DNA of 21,573 bases, taken from positions 1 to 21,573 of IMG/VR virus record IMGVR_UViG_3300028844_005888. One strand, written 5' to 3'. Position numbers and translations under genes: made by a program. The notes under the pieces are model-generated. The model was not told the origin of the DNA. It did not search any database and saw only the letters and a program-made list of their open reading frames with translations. The stretch is from a virus. The number at the start of each line of letters is the position of its first letter. Positions within the stretch are counted from its first letter, which is position 1. Positions 5,237-17,771 of the stretch are shown in pieces.

Positions 5237-5281
5237 ACAGTGTTAAAAATAATACTTAAAACCTCAAAAAAGGAGAGTATG

Positions 5282-6271
5282 ATGGAAGTTATGAGTATTT
5301 GGATGCTGATCGGATTTTTATTTGCGGCATATGCGGTTATCGCAAACGATTCAGTTCAAACTTTGGGAACATGGATTGCATCAAATAATGAAAGATTTAA
5401 TTGGAAAGTTATGTGGGGTGCAGCTTCGGCTGTGCTCCTTTGGGCTTTGTGGTATGGCTGGTATAATTATGGAGGTGATATCAGTTATGGTCGTTTGAAT
5501 AAAATTCCATGGCAAGAGGTACAATGGTATCACGCACTTGCTCCTGGAGTATTATTGTTATTGACAAGGGTAGGTGTACCAGTAAGTACATCTTTCTTGG
5601 TATTATCTGCATTTGCTAGTACATTTGTATTAGAAAAAATGTTGATGAAATCTATGTTAGGATATGCCGTTGCAGCCGTTGCGGCTTATGCAATATGGAT
5701 GATTGTCAGTAAGTTATTAGATGAAGCAAAACCTGTAAAAGAAAATCATAAGAATTATTGGCGCATTGGTCAATGGGTAACGACTGGATTTCTATGGTGG
5801 ACTTGGTTATCTCATGATATGGCAAACATTGCTGTTTTTCTTCCCAGAGAATTGTCGGTTGAATTGATGCTTATGATATCCGTTGTTTTTGTTGCTGGTC
5901 TTGGTTTTATGCTAAGAGAAGGTGGCGGTAAGATTCAACAGATTGTTCTAGAAAAACACAACACAAGATATGTGAGGTCTGCAACAATTATTGATGGAGT
6001 TTATTGGCTTATTTTATATTTCTTTAAAGAATTAAATGATATTCCAATGTCAACTACATGGGTTTTTGTTGGTCTATTATGTGGTAGAGAACTTGCTATG
6101 GCAACAGTAACAGGCAAAGAAAAATTTAAAGTCGTATTTCCATTAATTGGTAAAGACTTTCTCAAAATGATGGTTGGTCTTGCAGCATCACTTGCTATTG
6201 TTCTTTCAATTCATTATGTATTTAATCCTATGCATAATGAAGAAGAAACTACACAAGAAATTACACAATAA
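5282..6271 (+). CDS. PiT-like phosphate transporter (compact, divergent)
   Basis: A 329-residue membrane protein with about nine or ten hydrophobic segments. It has the two-fold repeat of the PiT (inorganic phosphate transporter, PHO4) family: AND with SVQTLGT at 21-30 and PVSTSF at 100-105 in the first half, SHDMAN at 177-182 and PMSTTW at 255-260 in the second. Family members import phosphate with H+ or Na+ across the inner membrane. I chose ATG 5282, 6 nt after GGAG; ATG 5279 is adjacent, and a GTG at 5240 gives a longer, less likely start. It is shorter than the usual 400-500 residues. The His that normally ends each PxSTTH motif is Phe and Trp here, so transport ability or substrate may differ. 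It is a plausible phage metabolic gene for phosphate-poor water. Confidence 0.7.
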   Translation: MEVMSIWMLIGFLFAAYAVIANDSVQTLGTWIASNNERFNWKVMWGAASAVLLWALWYGWYNYGGDISYGRLNKIPWQEVQWYHALAPGVLLLLTRVGVPVSTSFLVLSAFASTFVLEKMLMKSMLGYAVAAVAAYAIWMIVSKLLDEAKPVKENHKNYWRIGQWVTTGFLWWTWLSHDMANIAVFLPRELSVELMLMISVVFVAGLGFMLREGGGKIQQIVLEKHNTRYVRSATIIDGVYWLILYFFKELNDIPMSTTWVFVGLLCGRELAMATVTGKEKFKVVFPLIGKDFLKMMVGLAASLAIVLSIHYVFNPMHNEEETTQEITQ

Positions 6272-6275
6272 AAAA

Positions 6276-6298
6276 ATGAGGGGCATTAAGCCCCTCAT
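6276..6298 (-). terminator. Intrinsic terminator (leftward)
   Basis: A 9-bp perfect stem ATGAGGGGC/GCCCCTCAT with a 5-nt loop. Read leftward, it is followed by a run of seven Ts counting the last stem base, so it ends the 6316-6546 transcript. Read rightward there is no T run, but the stem may still slow the transporter transcript. Confidence 0.85.
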
Positions 6299-6315: not shown

Positions 6316-6546
6316 TTAACGGCGTTCCCAGATGTTCCAGAGAATCCAGATTGCAACTAGTCCCATAATACCTTGGGCACCAAGTGTTGCCAGCATTGCG
6401 GATACGTTAGCAACAACAGATGTTGCTGGAATGAATGGAATCATACCGATTCCTAGAACTTCCAATACGATCATAAGTGCGGCGATACTCACGCCAACTT
6501 CGGCTAAAGATGCTGCCCAAGCTTTTACTGTATTCAGTACTTCCAT
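6316..6546 (-). CDS. Two-helix small membrane protein, holin-like candidate
   Basis: Reads leftward, 76 residues from the ATG at 6546, which has AAGGAGT 7-8 nt upstream; the longer reading from 6573 would include that ribosome site within the gene. Two hydrophobic helices: about 14-38 (EVGVSIAALMIVLEVLGIGMIPFIP) and 44-72 (VVANVSAMLATLGAQGIMGLVAIWILW), ending in the charged NIWERR. It is a self-contained unit with its own late-type promoter and intrinsic terminator, on the strand opposite its neighbours. Size, topology and late timing fit a class II holin, which makes holes in the inner membrane at lysis, but no endolysin is nearby, so a small virion or other membrane protein is equally possible. 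Confidence 0.65.
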   Translation of the reverse strand: MEVLNTVKAWAASLAEVGVSIAALMIVLEVLGIGMIPFIPATSVVANVSAMLATLGAQGIMGLVAIWILWNIWERR

Positions 6547-6578
6547 ATTTTTTGACTCCTTATAGTTGGTCATAAAAG

Positions 6579-6665: not shown

Positions 6666-7127
6666 ATGACTTTTTGGAAATGGTGGACTAGTATAGTGAT
6701 ATTAGCATTATCACTTGGATTTATACAGTACAATATTGATATACTTGGATTTATATATGAAAATGATCCTACAAGAATAACTATGTTAATAGCTTCCATC
6801 TTTTTACTTTCAACTATAAAAGTTGGAATTGAAAGTTGGAAAAGACAGTTTTCATATGATAATCAAGATGAACTAAGCATGGTTTGGTTTATATCTGATG
6901 CTGTTATGTCTATAGGCATGATAGGAACTTTAGTTGGCTTTATTATTGTTCTTACAACAACCTTTACAGAAATAGACACAACTTCGGCACAAGCTATGAA
7001 AGAAGTGATTAGTAAACTAGCACAAGGTATGGGAATTGCGTTGTTGACTACACTTACTGGACTGGTAACTTCCGTTATTTTAAAATTGCAGTTAGTAATG
7101 CTGGATACAGATGATGAAAAAATATAG
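6666..7127 (+). CDS. MotA/TolQ/ExbB-like proton channel protein
   Basis: A 153-residue protein with four hydrophobic segments: about 8-30, 37-54, 72-98 and 119-142. The last two carry the family signature: SIGMIGTLVGFIIVL (82-96), like the IGxxGTVxG motif of ExbB and TolQ, and GMGIALLTTLTGLVTS (121-136), like the GxxxALxTTxxGL motif of the final helix. In the known family, five such subunits form a ring round a two-copy MotB/ExbD/TolR partner and turn proton flow into rotation or force. The next gene is exactly such a partner and overlaps by 17 nt. GAGGA precedes ATG 6666. It is shorter than ExbB or TolQ (about 230-240), chiefly in the cytoplasmic part. Confidence 0.75.
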   Translation: MTFWKWWTSIVILALSLGFIQYNIDILGFIYENDPTRITMLIASIFLLSTIKVGIESWKRQFSYDNQDELSMVWFISDAVMSIGMIGTLVGFIIVLTTTFTEIDTTSAQAMKEVISKLAQGMGIALLTTLTGLVTSVILKLQLVMLDTDDEKI

Positions 7128-7746
7128 TTCAAATTTAGCATTTACCGATCTACTTTTTAATCTACTAATAGGTTTTACAAGCTTACTTTTAATTGCATTT
7201 TTGCTTATCAATCCTATTGCCGAAGAAGGTAAGATTGATCCTAGATCAGAGTTTATCATTACATCTTCATGGGACGATGAATCTGCAATTGATATTGACA
7301 TATGGGTAAAAGGTCCTGACGATACGATTGTTGGATTTCCATCAAAAGATGGTAGGTACATGGTACTTGAGCGTGATGATCTTGGAGATACAAATGATTT
7401 AATTCAATTAAATGGCGATACAATATTAATTCAAAGAAATCTTGAGACACTTTCAATTAATGCGATTGTTCCTGGTGAGTACATTGTGACTGTTCATAAT
7501 TACAGTACATCAATTAGTAATGAAAATGAGGAATATCCTACTCCAGTAACTATTGATATTATGGATATGAATCCAATTTCGCTTGATATGAGTCGTACTG
7601 TAAAAGTTAGACTTAAAGAGGAAGTTTCAGTATTCTCTTTTATGGTAGATGAAGATGGTAATATCTATGATATGAACGATCAAATAGATGTAAAGATTCG
7701 TCCAGAAAAAGGAACACCTAGATCAGATCAATCTCAACAATTTTAG
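7111..7746 (+). CDS. MotB/ExbD-like partner with periplasmic beta domain
   Basis: A 211-residue protein with one N-terminal helix, about 12-34 (TDLLFNLLIGFTSLLLIAFLL), carrying Asp13 at its start, where MotB, ExbD and TolR have their essential proton-binding Asp. The remainder is predicted periplasmic and beta-rich: ESAIDIDIWVKGPDDTIVGF then IVPGEYIVTVHNYS resemble beta-sandwich domains with a D-x-D-x-WV edge. It lacks the OmpA-like peptidoglycan-binding domain of MotB, so its target is unclear. The ATG at 7111 is followed at once by a second one (7114); either may be used. The overlap with the MotA-like gene suggests coupled translation in fixed ratio. Confidence 0.7.
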   Translation: MMKKYSSNLAFTDLLFNLLIGFTSLLLIAFLLINPIAEEGKIDPRSEFIITSSWDDESAIDIDIWVKGPDDTIVGFPSKDGRYMVLERDDLGDTNDLIQLNGDTILIQRNLETLSINAIVPGEYIVTVHNYSTSISNENEEYPTPVTIDIMDMNPISLDMSRTVKVRLKEEVSVFSFMVDEDGNIYDMNDQIDVKIRPEKGTPRSDQSQQF

Positions 7747-7755
7747 GAAATAGTT

Positions 7756-8211
7756 ATGATAACACTCTTTATAATTATAATTGCGATTACTTGTATATAC
7801 ACGGCAAGCCTTATATACTATTCAAATGCGTCATTTATACTCAAACTTATTGCACTTCCAACTCAACTCGCGTTCTTTATATTCATGTCATATCAACTTA
7901 TACTATTGGCTGGAGCACCGATCAATGATGAACCAAATGGTAAATTCAATTATGTTCATCACGAAATAACTGATAAAGGTAACACTATTCTACTATGGAT
8001 GCATACATCGGAGAGAGGTCACCGCTTGTATAAACTGCCTTACGATAGAGAGAAAGCAAAGAAACTTGAACAAGCCAAGAACTCAAAGGGTACTGGTAAA
8101 AATATGGAAGGTGAGTTTCAACCGAATGGTAATGGATATACGTCACTTTTTGTAAGTGAACAATCACTATTAGAGCATCAAGATATAATAAAAAATGTTG
8201 ACAATCAATAA
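7756..8211 (+). CDS. Third membrane protein of the MotA/MotB-like operon
   Basis: A 151-residue protein starting at ATG 7756, 9 nt after the previous stop with AGGAAA between. Two hydrophobic helices fill residues 2-22 and 28-54. The rest is soluble and charged, with HHEITDKGNTILLWMHTSERGHRLYKLPYDREKAKKLEQAKNSKG split over a short strand region and a basic helix. Both termini are probably on the same side of the membrane. Its position makes it a likely accessory subunit or adaptor of the channel pair. No family recognised. The promoter at 8198 lies inside its last codons. Confidence 0.7.
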   Translation: MITLFIIIIAITCIYTASLIYYSNASFILKLIALPTQLAFFIFMSYQLILLAGAPINDEPNGKFNYVHHEITDKGNTILLWMHTSERGHRLYKLPYDREKAKKLEQAKNSKGTGKNMEGEFQPNGNGYTSLFVSEQSLLEHQDIIKNVDNQ

Positions 8212-8525: not shown

Positions 8526-8766
8526 TATTGTAATTGGATATAATATGGCTCTTGCTGTTACGCGAAGTATCAGCAAGACCGAATTCAAAAAGATGGAAAA
8601 TCCAGCGAGAATTGAAATCTTGAGATTTATTGATGATGCTATCTCTTTGACTTACGGCTCAAAGGCAGACGTTAAAATTTGGCGCCAACCTTTTGAAAAA
8701 AAGTACAAAGAACTAAGTAAAGTCCATGAAGATATTAAACAGAAGGAATTAGAAAAATGGAAATAA
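8518..8766 (+). CDS. Small helical protein, unknown function
   Basis: An 82-residue, mostly helical protein with start ATG 8518 overlapping the previous stop and AGGA upstream. The first 20 residues are mildly hydrophobic (MLDIVIGYNMALAVTRSI) and the rest charged, ending in a Lys/Glu-rich helix (KVHEDIKQKELEKWK). No motif recognised. It overlaps the lipoprotein gene by 10 nt, so the three genes 8250-8894 are probably one translationally coupled unit. Confidence 0.65.
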   Translation: MLDIVIGYNMALAVTRSISKTEFKKMENPARIEILRFIDDAISLTYGSKADVKIWRQPFEKKYKELSKVHEDIKQKELEKWK

Positions 8767-8894
8767 AAGTTTTTGTTACAATTCTACTAACACTATTTCT
8801 TGCAGGCTGCAATCCAGAATTAAGGTTTGAAGCAAAGCCAGAATTTAAATTTATTGCAAGTCCGCAAGAATTAACAATAGGTGCACATTTATAA
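8757..8894 (+). CDS. 45-residue lipoprotein
   Basis: Begins MEIKVFVTILLTLFLAGC: a short signal peptide ending in a classic lipobox LAGC, with lipidation and cleavage expected at Cys18. The mature part would be only 28 residues (CNPELRFEAKPEFKFIASPQ and eight more). Asn at +2 predicts sorting to the outer membrane by the usual Gram-negative rule. AAGGA precedes the ATG. Tiny phage lipoproteins include Rz1-type outer spanins and superinfection or entry blockers. The upstream partner lacks a clear membrane helix, so a spanin pair is not well supported. Confidence 0.7.
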   Translation: MEIKVFVTILLTLFLAGCNPELRFEAKPEFKFIASPQELTIGAHL

Positions 8895-8938: not shown

Positions 8939-9000
8939 GTTAAAGTCGATGTTTTCTTTCTTTTTTAAACTTAGAGCCAGTTTTACTGGCTCTTTTTTTT
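8939..9000 (+). ncRNA. Candidate 60-nt small RNA
   Basis: Bounded by the promoter at 8904 and the terminator at 8973-9000. The only ATG inside (8950) has no ribosome site and its frame runs through the terminator. The 5' half has a pyrimidine-rich single-stranded stretch (8952-8966) containing TTTCTTTCTTT, complementary to the AAAGAAAGAAA just before the ATG at 2477 (minus strand) and, over 8-9 nt, to the leaders at 2609-2617 and near 3165. This could be a small regulatory RNA, or just a by-product of a terminator shielding the late operon from early transcription. Confidence 0.5.
8973..9000 (+). terminator. Intrinsic terminator
   Basis: Perfect 8-bp stem AGAGCCAG/CTGGCTCT (8973-8980/8986-8993), TTTTA loop, then seven more Ts (8994-9000). 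It separates early-type transcription from the late operon. Confidence 0.9.
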
Positions 9001-9043: not shown

Positions 9044-10261
9044 ATGAGAGACTTTCGTACTTTTATTACAGAACAGAAAAATACTCATATGACTCATATA
9101 GAAGATAAAGTGTTATATGGTGGAGTAAAAGGTACAAGAGAAGCTATTTTTGCATTAATTGGTATGCGAGATATGTTATCGGGTGTTAAGAAAGGAAACG
9201 TAAGTGTTAAATGGGACGGTGCTCCTGCTGTATTCGCTGGTATTGATCCGAGTGATAACCGCTTTTTTGTTGCCAAAAAAGGCATATTCAATAAAAACCC
9301 TAAGGTCTATAAATCTCCAGCTGATATTGATGCTGATACTTCTGGCGACCTTAATGCTAAGTTACAAGACGCACTCAAATACTTGCCGGAATTGGGAATC
9401 AAAGGCGTGGTCCAAGGAGACTTCTTATATTCCCGAGATGATTTGTCAAATCAAACAATTGCCGGAAAAAAATATACTACCTTTCATCCTAACACATTGA
9501 TTTATGCAATAGACCAAGGTTCGCCTGCAGCAAAAGATATAAAAAATTCTAAAATAGGTATTGTTTGGCACACTACATATACTGGAGATTCATTTGAGAA
9601 TATGAAAGCTAGTTATGGTGTGAATATAAAGAAATTTAAAAAATCTAAAAATGTTTGGTCTCAAGATGCCATGCTAAGAGATATGACAGGCATTACAATG
9701 TCTGCAAAAGATACAACTGAAGTGAATAAACAATTGACTGAAATAGGTAAATTATTTAATCAGATTTCTAGTTCTACACTCAAGCAATTAGAGACTAATG
9801 AAGATTTAGCTAAATCGATAGAAACTTTTAACAATACATATGTACGTCAAGGACAAATTATAAAAGATACTCAAAAACATGTCAATAATTTAATTCAATG
9901 GCACAAAGATAAGTTCCAAAAAGAAATCGATAAGAGAAAAACTGATAAGGGCAAATTAGCACAAAAGAATAAAAGAGATGATCTGTTGAAATTTTTTTCA
10001 GAAACTAACAAATCCAATCTAAAAAAGATGTTCGATCTGCAAAAATTGATAGTTCTAGTTAAATTGAAACTTATAAATATACTTAATAGAATCAAAAATT
10101 ATGATGTATTTGTTAAAACCAAAGATGGTTTTAAAGTATCTGGTGATGAAGGCTATGTAGCAATTGATAAACTTGGTGGTGACGCAGTGAAACTTGTTGA
10201 TCGTATGGAATTTTCATACAACAACTTTTCACCAGAAATTTTAAAAGGATGGGAAAAATAA
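9044..10261 (+). CDS. DUF6267-type protein with ligase-like motifs
   Basis: A 405-residue protein typical of marine T4-like phages, which I recognise as DUF6267. The core holds KWDG (56-59) in VSVKWDGAPAVFAG, then FFVAKKG (74-80), GDFLYS (125-130), and near the end DEGYVAI (368-374) and AVKLVDR (381-387). These resemble motifs I, III, IV and V of ATP-dependent ligases and capping enzymes, where the motif I Lys carries the nucleotide. A long helical Lys-rich insert (about 230-350) separates III from IV, which is unusual. The N-terminus MRDFRTFITE ends in IxE at residue 10, like the T4 capsid-targeting peptide cut by the prohead protease, so it may be packaged. Start ATG 9044, AAAGG upstream. 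Confidence 0.75.
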   Translation: MRDFRTFITEQKNTHMTHIEDKVLYGGVKGTREAIFALIGMRDMLSGVKKGNVSVKWDGAPAVFAGIDPSDNRFFVAKKGIFNKNPKVYKSPADIDADTSGDLNAKLQDALKYLPELGIKGVVQGDFLYSRDDLSNQTIAGKKYTTFHPNTLIYAIDQGSPAAKDIKNSKIGIVWHTTYTGDSFENMKASYGVNIKKFKKSKNVWSQDAMLRDMTGITMSAKDTTEVNKQLTEIGKLFNQISSSTLKQLETNEDLAKSIETFNNTYVRQGQIIKDTQKHVNNLIQWHKDKFQKEIDKRKTDKGKLAQKNKRDDLLKFFSETNKSNLKKMFDLQKLIVLVKLKLINILNRIKNYDVFVKTKDGFKVSGDEGYVAIDKLGGDAVKLVDRMEFSYNNFSPEILKGWEK

Positions 10262-10263
10262 GA

Positions 10264-13200
10264 ATGCAAAGTTTTAAAGAAAGTCTTTGGGCTAATATTC
10301 ATAAGAAAAGAAAAGAAGGCAGACCTATGCGAAAGCCTGGTTCTAAAGGCGCTCCTACAGACCAAGATTTTAAAAGTGCGCGAGGTGAGTCCGCTGAAGT
10401 AAACGAAATTTCTCCAGAAAAGAAAAAAGCATACAAAAGCAAAGCAGAAAGAGATTTGCCACAACGTACAAAGTATGCCAATAATTATCAAAATGCTGCT
10501 AAAGCCGATCCATCAAATGCAGATTATAAGAAGCGCGGAGATGCCCATCGCCGTAAAGAAAAGAATCGCATGAAAGGCATTGCATCTGTTACTGAGAAAA
10601 ATTGTGGTTGTGGAAAAACTCCCTGCGAAACATATGGTGAAAACTATAGTGAAGGTTTTATGGACACTATGAAACAATTAGTGCCAGGTGCTAGAGGAAA
10701 ACCACAGAAACCACAGCAAGGTAAAAAAACTGCCATGGAAATGCAGTTTCCATATGCCCGTTTATCAGTTCATAGAATGATAGTAGCTTTACGAAAAGCA
10801 AGGGGCACTGCTATGAAGGGTAAAGCGCAGGGGAAAGACCGTAGAGAAAACGAAAGAAGTTTAGGTTTTATTTTAGCTCATGTTGAAGATATAGCAAGAA
10901 ATCGGCACACCGAACAACCAAACAGTGGCAGGCAGATTCATGATGAAGGGAATATAGACGATGCAACCCAACAATATTTTATGGACAAAATTAGACAAAA
11001 CGATTGGACAAAAGCTGATCAGGAAATTTTAAATGCTATGGTTGGTAACGGAACAGATGACAATACAAAGGGTGGTGCATATCATGCAAGATCGTTGGCC
11101 CACGATATCGCTCTTTCGGTAAAGTATGCAAAGAAAGATGCTGGTATTAAAGAATCTGTTAATGAAGGTTTTATGGACACTATGAAACAATTAGTGCCGG
11201 GCGCAAAAGGAAAGCCTGCAAAAAAACTTAATGCAAAAAAACTTAATGCAGAACAAGTTAAAATATCTAAACAAATAGATAAAAAATTAAAATTAATTGA
11301 TGGTTTAATACAAAAAGTGCGACCACTAGGCGGTCAAATTGGTGGATTGGTGAGATTTAGCAAACTTCCGATTGAAAAAATGACTCCAAAAGATTTGTAT
11401 AGAGTATTGAACGATTGGTACGATTCTATAGAAGATGAATTAGACAATGGTGATGATAGTGCCGTTTTATCGAAAAAATATGGACGTTCAGTGGAAGACC
11501 TTCATGAACGCCTCGAAGAACTGGCACTTAAAATAAAAGATTATATGTATGCTTCTGGATATGATGTTCCACACGGTGGTGCAAAATTTCAATATCGATG
11601 GTTGAACAAAGTTGATTTTAGTGCTTCAAAGAGAACAGATGCAAAATGGTTGAAAATGAATGAATCTGTTGATGAAGGTTTTATGGACACATTCTTGGGC
11701 AGAAATATGAAAAAGGGCAATGTTGATAAGAAAAGAGTAAAAAAATCTAAAAATTCAGAACAAGTTAAATTATCTACAGAAATAGATAGAAAATTAAGAT
11801 TGATAGATGACTTAATGCAAAAAGTGCGACCATTGGGCGGCAAGCTTGGAAAATTAATGGCATTTCGCAAACTTCCGATTGAAAAAATGACTCCAAAGGG
11901 TATGTACTTAGCCTTGAATGATTGGTGGTCATCTATAGAAGCTGATTTAGATGACGACTCTGAAGATGATAATGAAAAGTATGCACAATCAGCAGAAAAA
12001 CTTTATGATCTTTGGGAAGAAGTAGGATTTAAACTAAGTGACTATATGTGGGCTTCTGGATATAATATTAAGGGAATCGGTCAGATGGCGAAGATAGGTT
12101 TTCCCGCTAAAAAGAGAACAGATCCAGAATGGTTGAAAATGAATGAATCTGTTGATGAAGGTTTCATGGACGCCATTCTAGGCAAAAATATGAAAAAGCG
12201 CGCAGAAGGAAATGCAGAACAAACTAAAATAGCTACGGATATTAATAGAAAATTAACATTAATTGATGGTTTAATGAAAAAGGTAAAACCTCTAGGCGGC
12301 AAGATGACTAGGTTGACTTCATTTCGCAAGACACCAATCAAAAAAATGACTCCAAAAGATTTGTATAGAGCATTGAATGATTGGTACTTATCTATAGATG
12401 ATTATCTCAATGACAATCCTGAAGTTGATAAACGTCATGGGCCCACAGTAGTCAAACTTCATAGTGTTTGGGAAGAAGTAGCAGATAAAGTACAAGACTA
12501 TATGTGGGCTTCTGGATACAATGTTAAACGCGGCGCGCAGAGCAAAGGGGGAAATATCATTGCTGATGTAATAAAGCCCGGCGGTCCTGTCATGGTACAG
12601 ACGAAAAAATTGAAAGTTGATGGAAAACTGGTGGATATTGATTATAATGTGCCAAAGAGAACAGATGCAAAATGGTTGAAAATGAATGAATCTAGAGTCA
12701 AAAACGTGGTAAGAGGAATGGGGGTTGATCCTGATCTTGTAATGAGAGGAATGGGAAAAGGTCCACATGCCGCAAAAGATAAGGCAAGAGCAGCAAAAGA
12801 ACCGAAAAAAACATTAAAATCTAGGGCTAAGAATGTGGCAAGAGGTATGGGTGTTGATCCAGATAATGTAATGAGAGGAATGGGTTTCAAAGAAGCTTCA
12901 GAACTTGATGAAAATAAAGCTGGGCGCCCCGTTTACTATTCAGTTGATCTTAATCATCAAATTCTGAAAGTGCATGATAGCAAAGAAGCTGGTATGAAAT
13001 ATAAAGTAGGCGGCGATGGACCAGATGGACATTTTTTAGTAAAAACAATTAGCAAAGCCCAAGGCAAAAAGCAAGTTGGGCGTTTTGTTGGGCGTCTGGT
13101 TAGCCGGCATTTAGACAAACAACCCTTTCCACACGATGATGGACCACATTATTCTGTACATAAAGAATCTGTTGAACTTGATGAATCAGTTTATGATAAA

Positions 13201-13935
13201 AAGTTGGCTCAAGCTTGGAAAAAAGTTAAATCTCTTCCTAATGTCCGAGGCATAAGTAATTCTGGCCAAAATCATGCAAAGAAACTATCTTCTTTGTTAA
13301 AAGGTAGTCCCGATAAACTTACATTTGAGAAATTAGAATTGGCTCTTGGTACTTATGAGACTCACGCATATAAGGCTGCAGAAGATAAGACAAATCCACA
13401 TGGAAAAGAAGACCTAGCAAAACTACAGGAATTTTGTGATTCGGTAGATGAAGTTATTGGTGCAATGAAAAATCTGCATCAAAGTAAACTTAAAGAAAGC
13501 CTTGAAGAAAATTATATGGCATGTAAAGATTGTGGTGATGAATTTGCAAAACCTACAACTGATTGTGAAAATGACTGTTATGATGAAAATGGTAGTCATT
13601 GGGAGTCTGTTGATGAAGCGTTGAGTATGCAACAAAGACTTGCTAGAGGTAGATCCGCTAGAAGAAATAAACAGAAAATGGCTCGTGGTAGAGAACGCGC
13701 TAAAAGAAAAGTTGCTACTAAAGATGTTCTGATGAAAAGAGCAAGAAAAGCAGCAAGAAAAGCACTATATAAAAAGTTGACAAAAAATGCTACAGACTTG
13801 TCTCCGGCAAGAAAAAAAGAACTTGAGACAAAGCTTCAGAAACCACAAATGCAAAAAGTGGTACATAGATTAGCTAAGAAGTTAGTGCCTAAAATTAAAA
13901 AAGCTGAAACTCAAAGAAGGTCAGGCTCAAAATAA
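10264..13935 (+). CDS. Giant modular head-core/polyprotein candidate
   Basis: A 1223-residue highly charged, basic protein starting at ATG 10264, 2 nt after the previous stop; an ATG at 10249 would overlap. Parts in order: MQSFKESLWANIHKKRKEG start typical of marine phage core proteins; Cys motif CGCGKTPC (from 114); a helical module after SEGFMD; three homologous modules of 160-180 residues (297-466, 467-627, 628-808), each opening ESV(N/D)EGFMD and ending (A/P)(K/E)WLKMN; a duplicated RGMGVDPD motif (about 809 and 853); a module closed by KESVELDE; a possible zinc ribbon CxxC-x10-CxxxC (1087-1105); and a strongly basic Arg/Lys tail. The recurring tags look like protease sites between units, and the basic tail could bind packaged DNA. 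Function is inferred. Confidence 0.8.
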   Translation: MQSFKESLWANIHKKRKEGRPMRKPGSKGAPTDQDFKSARGESAEVNEISPEKKKAYKSKAERDLPQRTKYANNYQNAAKADPSNADYKKRGDAHRRKEKNRMKGIASVTEKNCGCGKTPCETYGENYSEGFMDTMKQLVPGARGKPQKPQQGKKTAMEMQFPYARLSVHRMIVALRKARGTAMKGKAQGKDRRENERSLGFILAHVEDIARNRHTEQPNSGRQIHDEGNIDDATQQYFMDKIRQNDWTKADQEILNAMVGNGTDDNTKGGAYHARSLAHDIALSVKYAKKDAGIKESVNEGFMDTMKQLVPGAKGKPAKKLNAKKLNAEQVKISKQIDKKLKLIDGLIQKVRPLGGQIGGLVRFSKLPIEKMTPKDLYRVLNDWYDSIEDELDNGDDSAVLSKKYGRSVEDLHERLEELALKIKDYMYASGYDVPHGGAKFQYRWLNKVDFSASKRTDAKWLKMNESVDEGFMDTFLGRNMKKGNVDKKRVKKSKNSEQVKLSTEIDRKLRLIDDLMQKVRPLGGKLGKLMAFRKLPIEKMTPKGMYLALNDWWSSIEADLDDDSEDDNEKYAQSAEKLYDLWEEVGFKLSDYMWASGYNIKGIGQMAKIGFPAKKRTDPEWLKMNESVDEGFMDAILGKNMKKRAEGNAEQTKIATDINRKLTLIDGLMKKVKPLGGKMTRLTSFRKTPIKKMTPKDLYRALNDWYLSIDDYLNDNPEVDKRHGPTVVKLHSVWEEVADKVQDYMWASGYNVKRGAQSKGGNIIADVIKPGGPVMVQTKKLKVDGKLVDIDYNVPKRTDAKWLKMNESRVKNVVRGMGVDPDLVMRGMGKGPHAAKDKARAAKEPKKTLKSRAKNVARGMGVDPDNVMRGMGFKEASELDENKAGRPVYYSVDLNHQILKVHDSKEAGMKYKVGGDGPDGHFLVKTISKAQGKKQVGRFVGRLVSRHLDKQPFPHDDGPHYSVHKESVELDESVYDKKLAQAWKKVKSLPNVRGISNSGQNHAKKLSSLLKGSPDKLTFEKLELALGTYETHAYKAAEDKTNPHGKEDLAKLQEFCDSVDEVIGAMKNLHQSKLKESLEENYMACKDCGDEFAKPTTDCENDCYDENGSHWESVDEALSMQQRLARGRSARRNKQKMARGRERAKRKVATKDVLMKRARKAARKALYKKLTKNATDLSPARKKELETKLQKPQMQKVVHRLAKKLVPKIKKAETQRRSGSK
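10651..11198 (+). repeat. 35-nt direct repeat at two module starts
   Basis: Bases 10651-10685 recur exactly at 11164-11198 and encode EGFMDTMKQLVP in both. Identity at silent positions implies recent duplication or gene conversion of module starts. Confidence 0.85.
11152..12687 (+). repeat. Three tandem protein modules
   Basis: Units 11152-11661, 11662-12144 and 12145-12687. Each contains ESV(N/D)EGFMD, a helix KLxLIDxLxxKV(R/K)PLGG, a core P(I)xKMTPKxxYxxLNDW(Y/W)xSI, then DYM(Y/W)ASGY and KRTD(A/P)(K/E)WLKMN. Units differ by many substitutions between the conserved blocks, so the array is older than the 35-nt repeat. Confidence 0.9.
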
Positions 13936-13936
13936 T

Positions 13937-15481
13937 ATGGTAAATTTTACATCATTTAGACAATATTTAGTTGAAGAAGAAAAAACTGTATACTTTACTT
14001 TTGGTAGAATGAATCCTCCTACCATAGGACATGGTCTTTTATTAAGTGTACTAGCTAAAAAAGCGGGTCGTAATGCATATAGAGTATATGTATCACAATC
14101 AAGTGACCCTAAGAAAAATCCTTTATCTTATAATGATAAAGTAAAATATTTGCGTAAAATGTTTCCAAAACAATCCCGTAGTATTATGATGAATATGTCA
14201 GTAAAAAATGTTTTCGATGCTGCTACTGCCATGCATGATGATGGATTTAAAAATGCTATTATGGTAATAGGAAGTGATAGAGTAAAAGAGTTTGATGTAT
14301 TACTTCAAAAATATAATGGTGTTAAAGGTAAACATGGCTTCTATCACTTTAAAACATTAAGTGTGATAAGTGCTGGTGAACGTGACCCAGATGCTGAAGG
14401 TGTACAAGGTGCGTCTGCAACAAAACAAAGAAAAGCCGCTACAGATAACGACTTTATAGCATTTGCTCAAGGCTTACCGAAAACTATGTCAGATAAAGAC
14501 GCAAAAGGTCTTTTCAATGCAGTTCGTAATGGAATGGGTTTGAAAGAAGCGCAAGAATTTAAAAATCATATACAATTAAAAAGCGTTTCTGATATTAGAG
14601 AAAAATTTGTTTCTGGTAATATTTTTAATGTTAATGACTTTGTAATGATTAAAGACATTCAAGAAAAAGCAATGATAACTTTTAAAGGCTCAAATTATTT
14701 AATTCTAGAAAAAGAAGATGGATCCACTTGTAGAAAATGGATTGATTCTGTTGAAGCTATTGAAGAATCTTATGAAATAGGAACAGATGAATATTTAAAA
14801 CATGCTAAGAAAATGACTCCTGGCGAAGCTACTGAAGTTGGACAAGACCCAGACATTAAAGATAAGCCTGGTACTCAACCATCAGTATACTATAAGGGCA
14901 TCAAAACAAAATCTACTAAAGTTGCAAGAAACAATCATTTTTCTAAGGGTGCTAAAATGGATGATGATAATCCAGCAGCATATAAGCCAGCGCCTGGTGA
15001 TGCAACAGCCAAAACTAAGCCGTCAAAGCATACGAAAAAGTTTAAACAAATGTATGGTGAAAATAAGGCAGAAGTTGCAGCAAAAGAAAAGATAGCTAGA
15101 GAAAAAGAGTCCGACGCTAAAAGACATGATAGAATGTTAGATAGAGCAAGATTACTAGATACAAAAACTAAAAATAATGTTGCCAAAGAAGAATATGATA
15201 TGACGAAAGCATTTCAAGATTTCATAACAGATTTAGATGAAGAAATTTTAAGTGAAGAAGCTTCTTCTGGATTAAAGAAAAAAGCCGAAAAATCTGGAAT
15301 GCCTGTAGGAATTCTTAGAAAAGTATATAATAGAGGAATGGCAGCATGGCGCACAGGACATAGACCTGGCACAACACCTCAGCAATGGGGAATGGCAAGA
15401 GTTAATTCATTCGTAACAAAATCCTCAGGAACCTGGGGCAAAGCAGATTCCGATCTAGCAGCAAAAGTAAGGAAAAAATAA
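13937..15481 (+). CDS. Adenylyl/cytidylyltransferase-like fusion protein
   Basis: A 514-residue protein starting 1 nt after the previous stop. Residues 18-190 are a HIGH-superfamily nucleotidyltransferase: GRMNPPTIGH (23-32), GSDR (112-115) and GASATKQR (158-165), the counterparts of the HxGH and ISSTxxR motifs of NMN or pantetheine-phosphate adenylyltransferases, so the catalytic set looks complete. A strand-rich module follows (about 215-275: NDFVMIKDIQEKAMITFKG, then SNYLILEKEDG). The last 72 residues (GLKKKAEKSGMPVGILRKV, then TGHRPGTTPQQWGMARVNSF) match the DUF5824-type domain of phage proteins. The start MVNFTSFRQYLVE fits a capsid-targeting peptide with LxE. The substrate is unknown; an NAD-related nucleotide is possible. 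Confidence 0.8.
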   Translation: MVNFTSFRQYLVEEEKTVYFTFGRMNPPTIGHGLLLSVLAKKAGRNAYRVYVSQSSDPKKNPLSYNDKVKYLRKMFPKQSRSIMMNMSVKNVFDAATAMHDDGFKNAIMVIGSDRVKEFDVLLQKYNGVKGKHGFYHFKTLSVISAGERDPDAEGVQGASATKQRKAATDNDFIAFAQGLPKTMSDKDAKGLFNAVRNGMGLKEAQEFKNHIQLKSVSDIREKFVSGNIFNVNDFVMIKDIQEKAMITFKGSNYLILEKEDGSTCRKWIDSVEAIEESYEIGTDEYLKHAKKMTPGEATEVGQDPDIKDKPGTQPSVYYKGIKTKSTKVARNNHFSKGAKMDDDNPAAYKPAPGDATAKTKPSKHTKKFKQMYGENKAEVAAKEKIAREKESDAKRHDRMLDRARLLDTKTKNNVAKEEYDMTKAFQDFITDLDEEILSEEASSGLKKKAEKSGMPVGILRKVYNRGMAAWRTGHRPGTTPQQWGMARVNSFVTKSSGTWGKADSDLAAKVRKK

Positions 15482-15482
15482 A

Positions 15483-17771
15483 ATGAAAGATGTTTTTAAA
15501 TTTTTGGAAGAACAGAATGAAAATTTTGATCATCTGTTAGACGAAATTACAGAAGAAGATATTGATATCGCAATAGAAGAAACTTTTGAAGAAGAAGTTA
15601 AAAATGAAGGTATCATTGATAGAATGCTAGCCGGAAGAAACAAAGAAGGTTCTAAAAAGTGGGTGACTAAAAAACCAGAGACCCAAGAAGGTAGAAAAAA
15701 CAAACTTGGTCCTCGCACTAAACAATCAGATCCTTATGAAAGTAATGAAGCTTTCAAATCTCACATGATGTATGATCCAAAAACCGGAAAGGGTTATAAA
15801 GCGGAAAAAGAAGAAGATCATTTAAGAATGAAAAAAATGGGTTATACTCATGACAAAATGGAATCTGTTGATCTTAGTCAATATCGCAAAGGTGGTTCTA
15901 AAGCAGGAAAGCTACCGCCACATCTTGCTAAATTTATTGATCCTAAAACTGGCAACTTTACAAAAGATGCTGAAGCTAGAATTCAAAAAGGTAGAAAAAG
16001 TAAAGCTAGTTTTAAAGATGTAACGCCCAAAGGTTATGGTCCAAACGAATCTGTTGAACTTGATGAGGGAATTGTTACTAAAACTTTGACCGGATTAGTT
16101 GACAAGGGATTGAATAAAGTCTTAGACAAACTAGAAAAAATGACAGGCAAACATCTTGGACTTGTGCAGAAGTCAAAAATTCCATCTACTGGTAAAGACA
16201 AGGCAAACAATGTTTTGAATTATATTGGGACCCCAAAGTTTCACGATGCCAAAAAATTAAAAAAAGACTCAGAAGATTTTCATCGCAAAGCAAAAAAACA
16301 GTGGACATGGTCAAAAAGAGAAGTCGGAGATTCATTTAGATATTATGGTGACGATGGAAAAATACCAAAAGAACAAAGAGAAATGGTTAGCGATCTGCAA
16401 GCAGAGATGCAGAAAATCATAGACATGCATACACAATTAGAAAAAATGATGCAAACTACTGGAAATTCTGTAAAGTATCAAAGAACAATGGAAAAACTAG
16501 AACGTGATACAAATAGAGTTTTTAAAGAAATTGGAAAAGTTACCGAAAGGGGTGATGCCAGATATCGGGCCGCGCAAGGAATTGCCAATCTCAAAAAGGC
16601 AAAGAAAATGACGCATGGAAAACTTAAAAAAGGTTCTTCTGTAAAATTCAGACCATATGCAAATAGGGGTGAATCTGTTGATGAAGAAATAAGCATTGAT
16701 GAAAAGAAAAATTCACAATCAAACTATGATCTTTACCATTCATCATTCTCAGGTGCAATGCAACATGCATATAAACATGCAAAAGATGCTCATGGCATTA
16801 CTGTACATTCTTCAGAGATTGATGATAAAGTTGCAAGTGGACCAAGAAAACCTGTAAATGGTAAAACAAATTCATATCGTTTGAAAGGTGATAAAGGCAA
16901 TATTCAAGTACAAGTCTATAATAGAGGTGGATCAAAACCGTTTGAATTGAATATGTATAAAGAATCTGTAATAGAAGATGCTGAAATGATTATTGAGAAT
17001 GTTTCTCCAAAACAAATTGCTATGTTGAAAAAACAATACTCAAGTATGCCAGATAGACTTCCTTTAGACCAAGCAACGAAAATGAGCAAGATGGTTGCTA
17101 AGTTTGATAAAGCATCTCTTATGAAAGTTGCAAAGGCCGATATTAAATGGTTATCCTCGGCAGCTAAAACCAATCTTATTTCTAAACACGGCGCTACTGC
17201 AAAAGATTTTAAAGAAGATATGTCAGTACATGGCGCACCTTCACATTCTGCAGATAAAAAACCTCAAAACTATCGTAAACCTGATGGCAAAATGGGAGTC
17301 AAAATGGTGCCTATGGATCCTCAGACTACTAGAAAAGAATCTGTTGAACTTGATGAGGTAAAAGGTGCATTAGGAATGGAATCCGCAGCAAAAGCGTTAG
17401 AAAAATACGCTAAAGCTTCTGGTGGAATGGATGAAAAAGATTTCATGACTGCGGCAAGATTGTTGCGTAAAGGTTTAGATATGAAATTGAAAAAATTCGT
17501 AGATGATATGGACACTGAACCTAGAGAAAAAGTTATTACAACTATGGCAAAAACCCTGGGTAAAAAGCCTGTTGAGAAAATGTTTGGTGTAAGACTTCGT
17601 GAAGCTTCAAATTATGTTTCAGAAAAATTGAAACCATCAGATGGTATGGCTGCTTACATAAAAGATTTCGCAAAATCGGATGCACCTTCGCTTAAAGGCA
17701 AAGATGAAAAGAAAAGAAAAGAAATGGCAATTGCCGCTTATGTCTATGCCAAAAGTCGGGCGCGTGACTGA
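15483..17771 (+). CDS. Modular head-core/polyprotein candidate with ESVELDE tags
   Basis: A 762-residue charged protein starting 1 nt after the previous stop, with AAGGA about 11 nt upstream. It begins MKDVFKFLEE, ending LxE at residue 10, as in T4 internal head proteins. Modules in order: an acidic N-terminus; MYDPKTGKGYKAEKEEDHL with MGYTH (about 97-120); ESVDL tag (127); ESVELDE (189-195); a long helical unit (190-395); ESVDEEISIDE (397-407); a module with LYHSSFSGAMQHAYKHAKD and NRGGSKPFELNMY seen in many marine phage proteins (about 413-490); a helical unit; ESVELDE (619-625); and a C-terminal YIKDFAKSDAP(x)n KRKEMAIAAYVYAKS motif. It shares tags but not modules with the 1223-residue protein. 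It is probably a packaged or core protein. Confidence 0.8.
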   Translation: MKDVFKFLEEQNENFDHLLDEITEEDIDIAIEETFEEEVKNEGIIDRMLAGRNKEGSKKWVTKKPETQEGRKNKLGPRTKQSDPYESNEAFKSHMMYDPKTGKGYKAEKEEDHLRMKKMGYTHDKMESVDLSQYRKGGSKAGKLPPHLAKFIDPKTGNFTKDAEARIQKGRKSKASFKDVTPKGYGPNESVELDEGIVTKTLTGLVDKGLNKVLDKLEKMTGKHLGLVQKSKIPSTGKDKANNVLNYIGTPKFHDAKKLKKDSEDFHRKAKKQWTWSKREVGDSFRYYGDDGKIPKEQREMVSDLQAEMQKIIDMHTQLEKMMQTTGNSVKYQRTMEKLERDTNRVFKEIGKVTERGDARYRAAQGIANLKKAKKMTHGKLKKGSSVKFRPYANRGESVDEEISIDEKKNSQSNYDLYHSSFSGAMQHAYKHAKDAHGITVHSSEIDDKVASGPRKPVNGKTNSYRLKGDKGNIQVQVYNRGGSKPFELNMYKESVIEDAEMIIENVSPKQIAMLKKQYSSMPDRLPLDQATKMSKMVAKFDKASLMKVAKADIKWLSSAAKTNLISKHGATAKDFKEDMSVHGAPSHSADKKPQNYRKPDGKMGVKMVPMDPQTTRKESVELDEVKGALGMESAAKALEKYAKASGGMDEKDFMTAARLLRKGLDMKLKKFVDDMDTEPREKVITTMAKTLGKKPVEKMFGVRLREASNYVSEKLKPSDGMAAYIKDFAKSDAPSLKGKDEKKRKEMAIAAYVYAKSRARD

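Follow-up and report, generated by a model that had tools for sequence, protein, structure and literature searches.

Few types of ion-driven rotary motor are known in bacteria. Members of the MotA/TolQ/ExbB family share GxxGTxxG and ALxxTxxG core helices in the ring subunit, a one-helix partner that carries an Asp, and an organization as a gene pair. Those that do not serve the flagellum have been called "generic ion transporters" (PMC12505986), and the part of that paper available to us mentions no three-gene type with a TerD-like head. In the Zorya system, according to the available text of PMC11890865, the Asp packs against a ring of Ser/Thr residues, and the core is used for defence. Stator-type genes have also been reported from viruses: excerpts of PMC8290583 (2021) describe motA/motB in viral contigs from glacier ice and the ocean, count 70 GOV 2.0 contigs with motA or motB, and note a peptidoglycan-binding motif in the viral MotB. 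As for TerD, the available part of PMC8123226 cites Ca2+ binding by the protein of K. pneumoniae, and is said to associate the Ter operon with the inhibition of phages and with resistance to colicins.

Here we analyzed the virus record IMGVR_UViG_3300028844_005888, of a marine phage, at its full length of 21,573 bases (hereafter the window), in which three plus-strand genes, tentatively referred to as A, B, and C, encode a stator-type pair and a third membrane protein. The pair has the core helices, the one-helix Asp partner and the gene-pair arrangement of the MotA/TolQ/ExbB family, and differs in the predicted TerD-like head on B, in the accompanying third gene C, and in the size of A (about 150 aa, vs. 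220–287 aa in the TolQ, PomA, MotA, and ExbB chains among its PDB matches). It shares its core with ZorAB of Zorya as well, although A lacks the long cytoplasmic tail of ZorA and B lacks the OmpA/peptidoglycan domain of ZorB (Pfam, 43 members), a domain that likewise sets flagellar MotB apart from B. No ZorC, ZorD, or ZorE was found by Pfam and PADLOC among the proteins of the window and the subset of neighbor representatives scanned. The Asp helix and the compact A resemble TolQR/ExbBD; in contrast, B has no Pfam ExbD/TolR match, no TolA or TonB was found, and C has two helices. Compared with the TerD family, the outer domain of B has a similar predicted fold, and its W-D, DxDL, and GD-rich motifs, as read by eye, follow one another as they do there, but B is membrane-anchored, predicted to face outside, and is without a Pfam TerD match or profile-profile support. 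The viral motA/motB genes in the available text of PMC8290583 are alike in being stator-type pairs in viruses with an ocean distribution, and unlike in that no peptidoglycan-binding domain was found in B; some of those 70 GOV 2.0 contigs could carry the A-B-C module. Our search of the open-licence literature, with subscription papers outside its reach, found no paper describing an A-B-C operon or a TerD-headed stator, and the operon seems to have received neither a name nor a functional test.

The ring-type protein A with B and C

An earlier note on this DNA, made from the letters alone, had read it as an overlapping stator-type pair with IGxxGTxxG and GxxxALxTTxxGL helices, whose partner has an Asp at the start of its single helix and a beta-rich, non-OmpA periplasmic domain, and whose operon is completed by a third membrane protein. 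It had staked this reading on a family match of A and on conservation of the Asp. Both bore out, and so did each of the structural points, the beta-rich domain being described more exactly as TerD-like in prediction. A, B, and C are real open reading frames, and A and B overlap by 17 bases. The two marks of the superfamily, a channel-domain match in A and a single helix with an acidic residue in B, are both present.

Gene A (6666..7127, plus strand) encodes a MotA/TolQ/ExbB-family ring protein of 153 aa. It matches Pfam MotA_ExbB (PF01618) with an E-value of 9.8e-8 and 32.2 bits against a cut-off of 22.9, and 40 of 42 A family members match the same model at E<=0.01. In a PDB search at E<=1, a profile of these 42 members retrieved 20 sequences. 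Stator ring proteins account for 18 of them (8vvn, MotA, ZorA, TolQ, PomA, and ExbB), and the remaining two are a TRP-like channel and an ATPase c subunit. NCBIfam gave matches far below its model cut-offs only, and the PADLOC ZorA models gave weak ones (best 5.1e-7). Hydropathy and charge counts fit four helices with both ends inside and a short loop between helices 2 and 3. The two family motifs read I83-G84-M-I-G87-T88-L-V-G91 and G121-M-G-I-A125-L-L-T128-T129-L-T-G132-L, with the codons of Thr88 (GxxGTxxG helix) at 6927..6929 and of Thr129 (ALxTTxxGL) at 7050..7052. Among 86 aligned phage rows, Thr88 is kept in 82, with A and N in two each, and the 81 genome rows all have it; position 129 is T in 58 and S in 29 of 87 phage rows, and T in 80 and S in 1 of 81 genome rows. 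Phage A proteins have a median length of 156 aa and end about 14 residues past helix 4. The span from D34 to G84 covers 39–66 residues in phages (one cut row aside) and 67–124 in the cellular regions that were fetched; in the GTDB loci, predominantly from SAR116, it is mostly 49.

Gene B (7111..7746, plus strand) encodes a protein of 211 aa. Its AlphaFold2 model (37 sequences, pLDDT 87.6) consists of a single N-terminal helix at residues 6–33 and a predicted periplasmic beta sandwich at residues 48–189 (7252..7677). Asp13 (codon 7147..7149), the expected ion-carrying acid, stands at the start of this only helix. It is conserved in all 89 viral rows and in 66 of 66 aligned GTDB rows, with one further row showing a gap, and in 19 of the 20 rows from fetched genome regions, where the exception is V. 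Also invariant in the 89 viral rows are W54, D61, D63, L86, R88, D89, D90, G92, N95, and E112; the viral loci were chosen by a pattern in residues 86–95, so that conservation there is partly by choice, and Asp13, W54, D61, D63, and E112 lie outside that pattern. In the MotA/TolQ/ExbB family, these Asp and Thr positions form the ion path, and by analogy Asp13, Thr88, and Thr129 would probably form it in A-B.

The assignment of the outer domain of B comes from structure comparison. A Foldseek search of the PDB ranked 9a6r_B best (2.7e-4) and returned the TerD protein 3ibz at 4.9e-3. VIA-align gave Z-scores of 10.4 for 3ibz, 9.5 for 2qng, 9.2 for 2qz7, 9.1 for 9a6r_B, and 8.1 for 2kxt, with rmsd 3.6–4.9 over 130–145 residues for the TerD structures, among which we presume 2qng and 9a6r_B to belong; the radial-spoke chain 7jtk, which is not TerD, reached 8.6, and past 2kxt the scores were 5.7 and lower. 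The domain as modeled therefore has a TerD-like fold, a description of shape that makes no claim of ancestry. Homology to TerD is unproven by sequence: Pfam gave no TerD, OmpA, or ExbD/TolR match in 43 B members (ExbD/TolR at E<=0.1), the best being weak matches to Y_Y_Y, PPC, and DUF2135, and B of the window matched nothing in Pfam, PHROGs, NCBIfam, or PADLOC. Alignment of the B profile with TerD by hhalign had a probability of 0.7–2.7% in three runs, which is not significant; the pairwise E-values were 0.086 with 4 TerD rows, and 0.017 (local) and 0.008 (global) with 52 rows, vs. 0.18–0.81 in controls. The global alignment, with its poor statistics, set the B motifs W-D, DxDI, and RDDLG close to W, D, and GD in TerD.

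Gene C (7756..8211, plus strand) encodes a protein of 151 aa, modeled by AlphaFold2 (pLDDT 82.3) as two helices (residues 2–22 and 27–52) followed by a small beta domain (61–121). The loop between the helices is positively charged (1.22 K/R vs. 0.13 D/E per sequence), and both ends of C, including the beta domain, are therefore predicted to lie outside. Pfam and PHROGs each gave a single sub-threshold match to C of the window, and Pfam matches across its relatives were scattered. Comparison of the model with solved structures gave nothing convincing (Z at most 7.2), an absence of match that does not make the modeled fold a new one.

Distribution in phages and alphaproteobacteria

Among annotated phage records, tblastn found relatives of A in 3 and of B in 27, the latter all Rhizobium or Sinorhizobium phages. 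The order A-B-C was present in all eight phage records examined (Pootjesviridae, 16-3-like phages, and others), some with small genes or homing endonucleases interposed; in Rhizobium phage 16-3 the three genes are p038, p040, and p042. A scan of viral contigs found 311 relatives of B, and the best 80 of these, together with the window and the eight phage records, made up a set of 89 viral loci. With iterated HMMs, B was found in 89 of them, A in 87, and C in 86, always in the same order. In the two loci without A (L010 and L022), B begins less than 40 bases from the start of the sequence, and the three without C (L031, L052, and L064) cover little sequence downstream. A and B lie within 60 bases of each other in 80 of the 89 loci, and B and C in 81, and the gene overlaps are conserved. 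This recurrence is far above chance. Comparison of the window with its relatives gave dN/dS values of 0.10–0.35 in 16 comparisons, with dS saturated in two more. A-B-C is a complete, selected motor-type gene set, and the phages that carry it infect one host class and belong to several unrelated kinds. In one related contig (L011), A is 62% identical to that of the window, while B and C are 92% and 91% identical, a pattern that a recombinational exchange of A would give.

The earlier note had taken the operon to be phage-borne, which holds insofar as phages carry it; it is, though, not phage-specific, and no phage invention, being chromosomal in SAR116 and present in Azospirillum and other alphaproteobacteria. 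A first genome scan, with a single protein as query, found no match. When 23 aligned B proteins served as the query instead, the scan gave 66 genome loci (GTDB), mostly SAR116, with B in 66, A in 62, and C in 61. One of them (L154) has two B genes, another (L159) lacks C at a contig end, and in L111 the neighbors are plainly bacterial; the contigs L097, L098, and L153 may be phage pieces in bins. C is followed by the same gene in 45 of the 66 loci, which by our own reading encodes an LLM-type oxidoreductase and marks one fixed operon site in SAR116. About 20 of the 66 loci (L104, L107, L108, L112–L114, L116–L118, and other SAR116) begin less than about 155 bases 5' of A; these early starts are contig ends, i.e., assembly breaks, for which no explanatory repeat was found.

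HMM surveys, in genomes that are incomplete and in which absences are soft, placed a relative of B in 45 of 136 SAR116-order genomes, in 64 of 385 sampled alphaproteobacterial genomes (55 at E<=2e-33 and nine weaker), and in 3 of 198 genomes from the phylum of a Desulfobacterales genome, one of them strong. Gene context was checked in the regions read: 20 fetched genome regions contained B in 20, A in 19, and C in 18, and had no neighbor common across cellular lineages. Azospirillum brasilense Sp7 has the full operon on a megaplasmid. In one alphaproteobacterial genome, a gene that by eye encodes a FliG-like protein lies directly 3' of C (L183:5240–6325, minus strand), and no such gene adjoins C in the three other genome regions inspected with it. 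Four genome loci (L151, L152, L154, and L157) contain B but neither of the other two genes, so B may also function by itself.

In a tree of 85 B proteins, the phage label changes at least 7 times, vs. 28.7 in shuffles, and at least 4 changes are forced by starred branches. The 16-3-like phages group with 12 rows of chromosomal origin (100/99), well away from the phages of marine contigs. The operon has been exchanged between phages and cells more than once. Because the rows from SAR116 are nested, at weak support (88/55), within a part of the tree made up mostly of phages, the tree fixes no direction of transfer.

Proposed mechanism and alternative readings

The reading we favor, at roughly even confidence, is that A-B-C forms a compact, ion-driven 5:2 rotary unit of the envelope, a TerD-headed subfamily of alphaproteobacterial origin that phages have borrowed. 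By analogy with the family, five A subunits would form a ring and two B helices its axle, and ions passing Asp13 and the Thr ring would turn one part against the other. B would extend its TerD-like head into the periplasm, and C would be a built-in third subunit with a periplasmic domain of its own. Because hardly any of A forms a cytoplasmic domain, the B head and C would do the work outside, where the target would be peptidoglycan, the outer membrane, or some periplasmic partner rather than a rotor in the cytoplasm. As no neighbor is conserved across cellular lineages, we name no partner. By analogy with TerD, the head may bind Ca2+.

The home of the operon would be the genomes of alphaproteobacteria, with several exchanges between these bacteria and their phages. 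A phage copy would supply or strengthen an envelope machine of the host, keeping or retuning the energized envelope of the infected cell, and possibly put rival phages at a disadvantage. Among the possible phage roles we would tentatively rank envelope support first and a block to superinfection second. A bolder and rather doubtful proposal is that A-B-C ranks with Mot, Ton, Tol, Agl, Gld, and Zor as a further, still unnamed class of ion-driven envelope machine, in which a Ca2+-binding TerD-like head would couple the motor to the periplasm and which phages would use to control entry. Such a class would tie the Ter fold of stress and phage resistance to a rotary motor. A minimal three-gene motor whose periplasmic head differs would offer a new approach to how such motors work in the envelope, and the module occurs in SAR116, which are abundant in the ocean, in Azospirillum of the soil, and in phages from either setting.

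The alternative that survives best, which we consider possible though not probable, is a device for superinfection exclusion or against phages generally: the motor would alter the envelope or sense injection and thereby stop a second phage, cells would retain the operon for the same benefit, and the use would be Zorya-like without Zorya effectors. The presence of the module in several unrelated phage kinds of one host class would suit such a device, as would the defence role of the same core in Zorya (available text of PMC11890865) and the links of the Ter operon to phage and colicin resistance (excerpt of PMC8123226), and the weak ZorA matches of A, in PADLOC and the PDB, reflect that shared core. 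On the other hand, the neighbors scanned include no Zorya effector family, and the fixed SAR116 site in 45 of 66 genome loci is unlike that of a mobile defence gene. We rejected a defence-island reading of the SAR116 copies, which occupy a single fixed operon site.

A proton leak for takeover or lysis timing, in which an ungated channel drains the proton gradient, appears improbable. The pair is of channel type and retains its ion-path residues, but bacteria retain the operon at a fixed locus, and the beta head and C would be needless in a leak. In the Pootjesviridae and RHph_N3_13, the neighbors are replication, gyrase, sigma-factor, and nucleotide genes and no lysis genes, yet a lysozyme gene lies within about 5 kb of the module in two other annotated phages.

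We think it very improbable that the phage proteins are decoys poisoning a Tol, Ton, Mot, or Zorya stator of the host by mixed assembly. The ring-core sequence is shared with such stators, but a decoy would need neither an active Asp nor a third subunit, whereas the full pair and C are retained with their channel residues and a low dN/dS. The earlier note had offered energizing of the envelope, disturbance of the host proton gradient, a block to superinfection, and countering of a stator-based defence as possible functions; the last of these, like the decoy, is made less likely by the purifying selection on Asp13 and the ion-path residues in phages, residues that cells retain as well.

Some of the neighbors in phage loci recur. 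Of the 89 viral loci, 34 have SbmA/BacA (identified by PF05992, E 2.8e-130) near the module, 27 of them within 600 bp, and counted by B group it is near in 15 of 39; a ClpP-like protease is near in 28 of the 89 loci, and a class II ribonucleotide reductase in 5 of the 39 groups, too few for a role in B12 uptake for that enzyme. A Ton-like energizer of nutrient uptake working with the phage SbmA/BacA would fit this proximity, but is scarcely credible, as a reverse scan found A, B, or C beside only 4 of 80 phage SbmA loci (the best 80 of 407, close to the query and of limited sequence span) and the window shows no gene for SbmA, TonB, or a receptor. SbmA was rejected as a partner on this reciprocal count, and is a common and mostly independent neighbor. 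We read none of these recurrent neighbors as functionally tied to the module. Transporters of the SbmA/BacA type are themselves common in uncultivated marine phages, with 407 relatives in viral contigs (L202–L279 and others), and occur in just 4 of 50,697 annotated phage records.

Other features of the window

The gene run that starts with A is followed 3' by a stem resembling an intrinsic terminator (8973..8993, plus strand), and a second such stem (6276–6298, minus strand) lies beyond a small gene divergent from A (6319–6573, minus strand). The latter encodes a protein of 85 aa with two predicted helices, which adjoins A in about ten related contigs too (cluster c364). No Rfam match was found in the window or in four genome loci, and sigma-70-like sites occurred in the window at chance level. 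ATAAATA and CTAAATA, which we take to be T4-type late-promoter motifs, had 11 matches vs. 10.4 expected and 1 vs. 5.6 expected in the window, and say nothing on timing.

Upstream, a membrane protein of 343 aa (5240–6271, plus strand) has no Pfam match over the cut-off and a weak match to the phosphate transporter structure 6l85 (E 0.0016), and is possibly a phage phosphate transporter. Downstream of C, an open reading frame of 45 aa (8757–8894, plus strand) is lipoprotein-like, with a LAGC box, and is also present in L010–L012; L013 and L014 have a 42-aa version located after SbmA. In five other loci (L037–L039, L048, and L049), a lipoprotein gene of 128–130 aa about 500 bases 5' of A is perhaps reminiscent of phage spanins. 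The annotated relatives closest to the DUF6267 protein of the window come from Phage C48C1 (a Stenotrophomonas phage), Methylophilales phages, cyanophages, and Pelagibacter phage HTVC008M. Finally, three large adjacent proteins (10249–17771) contain, as read by eye, a recurring ESV-type peptide and repeated "EGFMD" blocks, which are perhaps processing or packaging signals.
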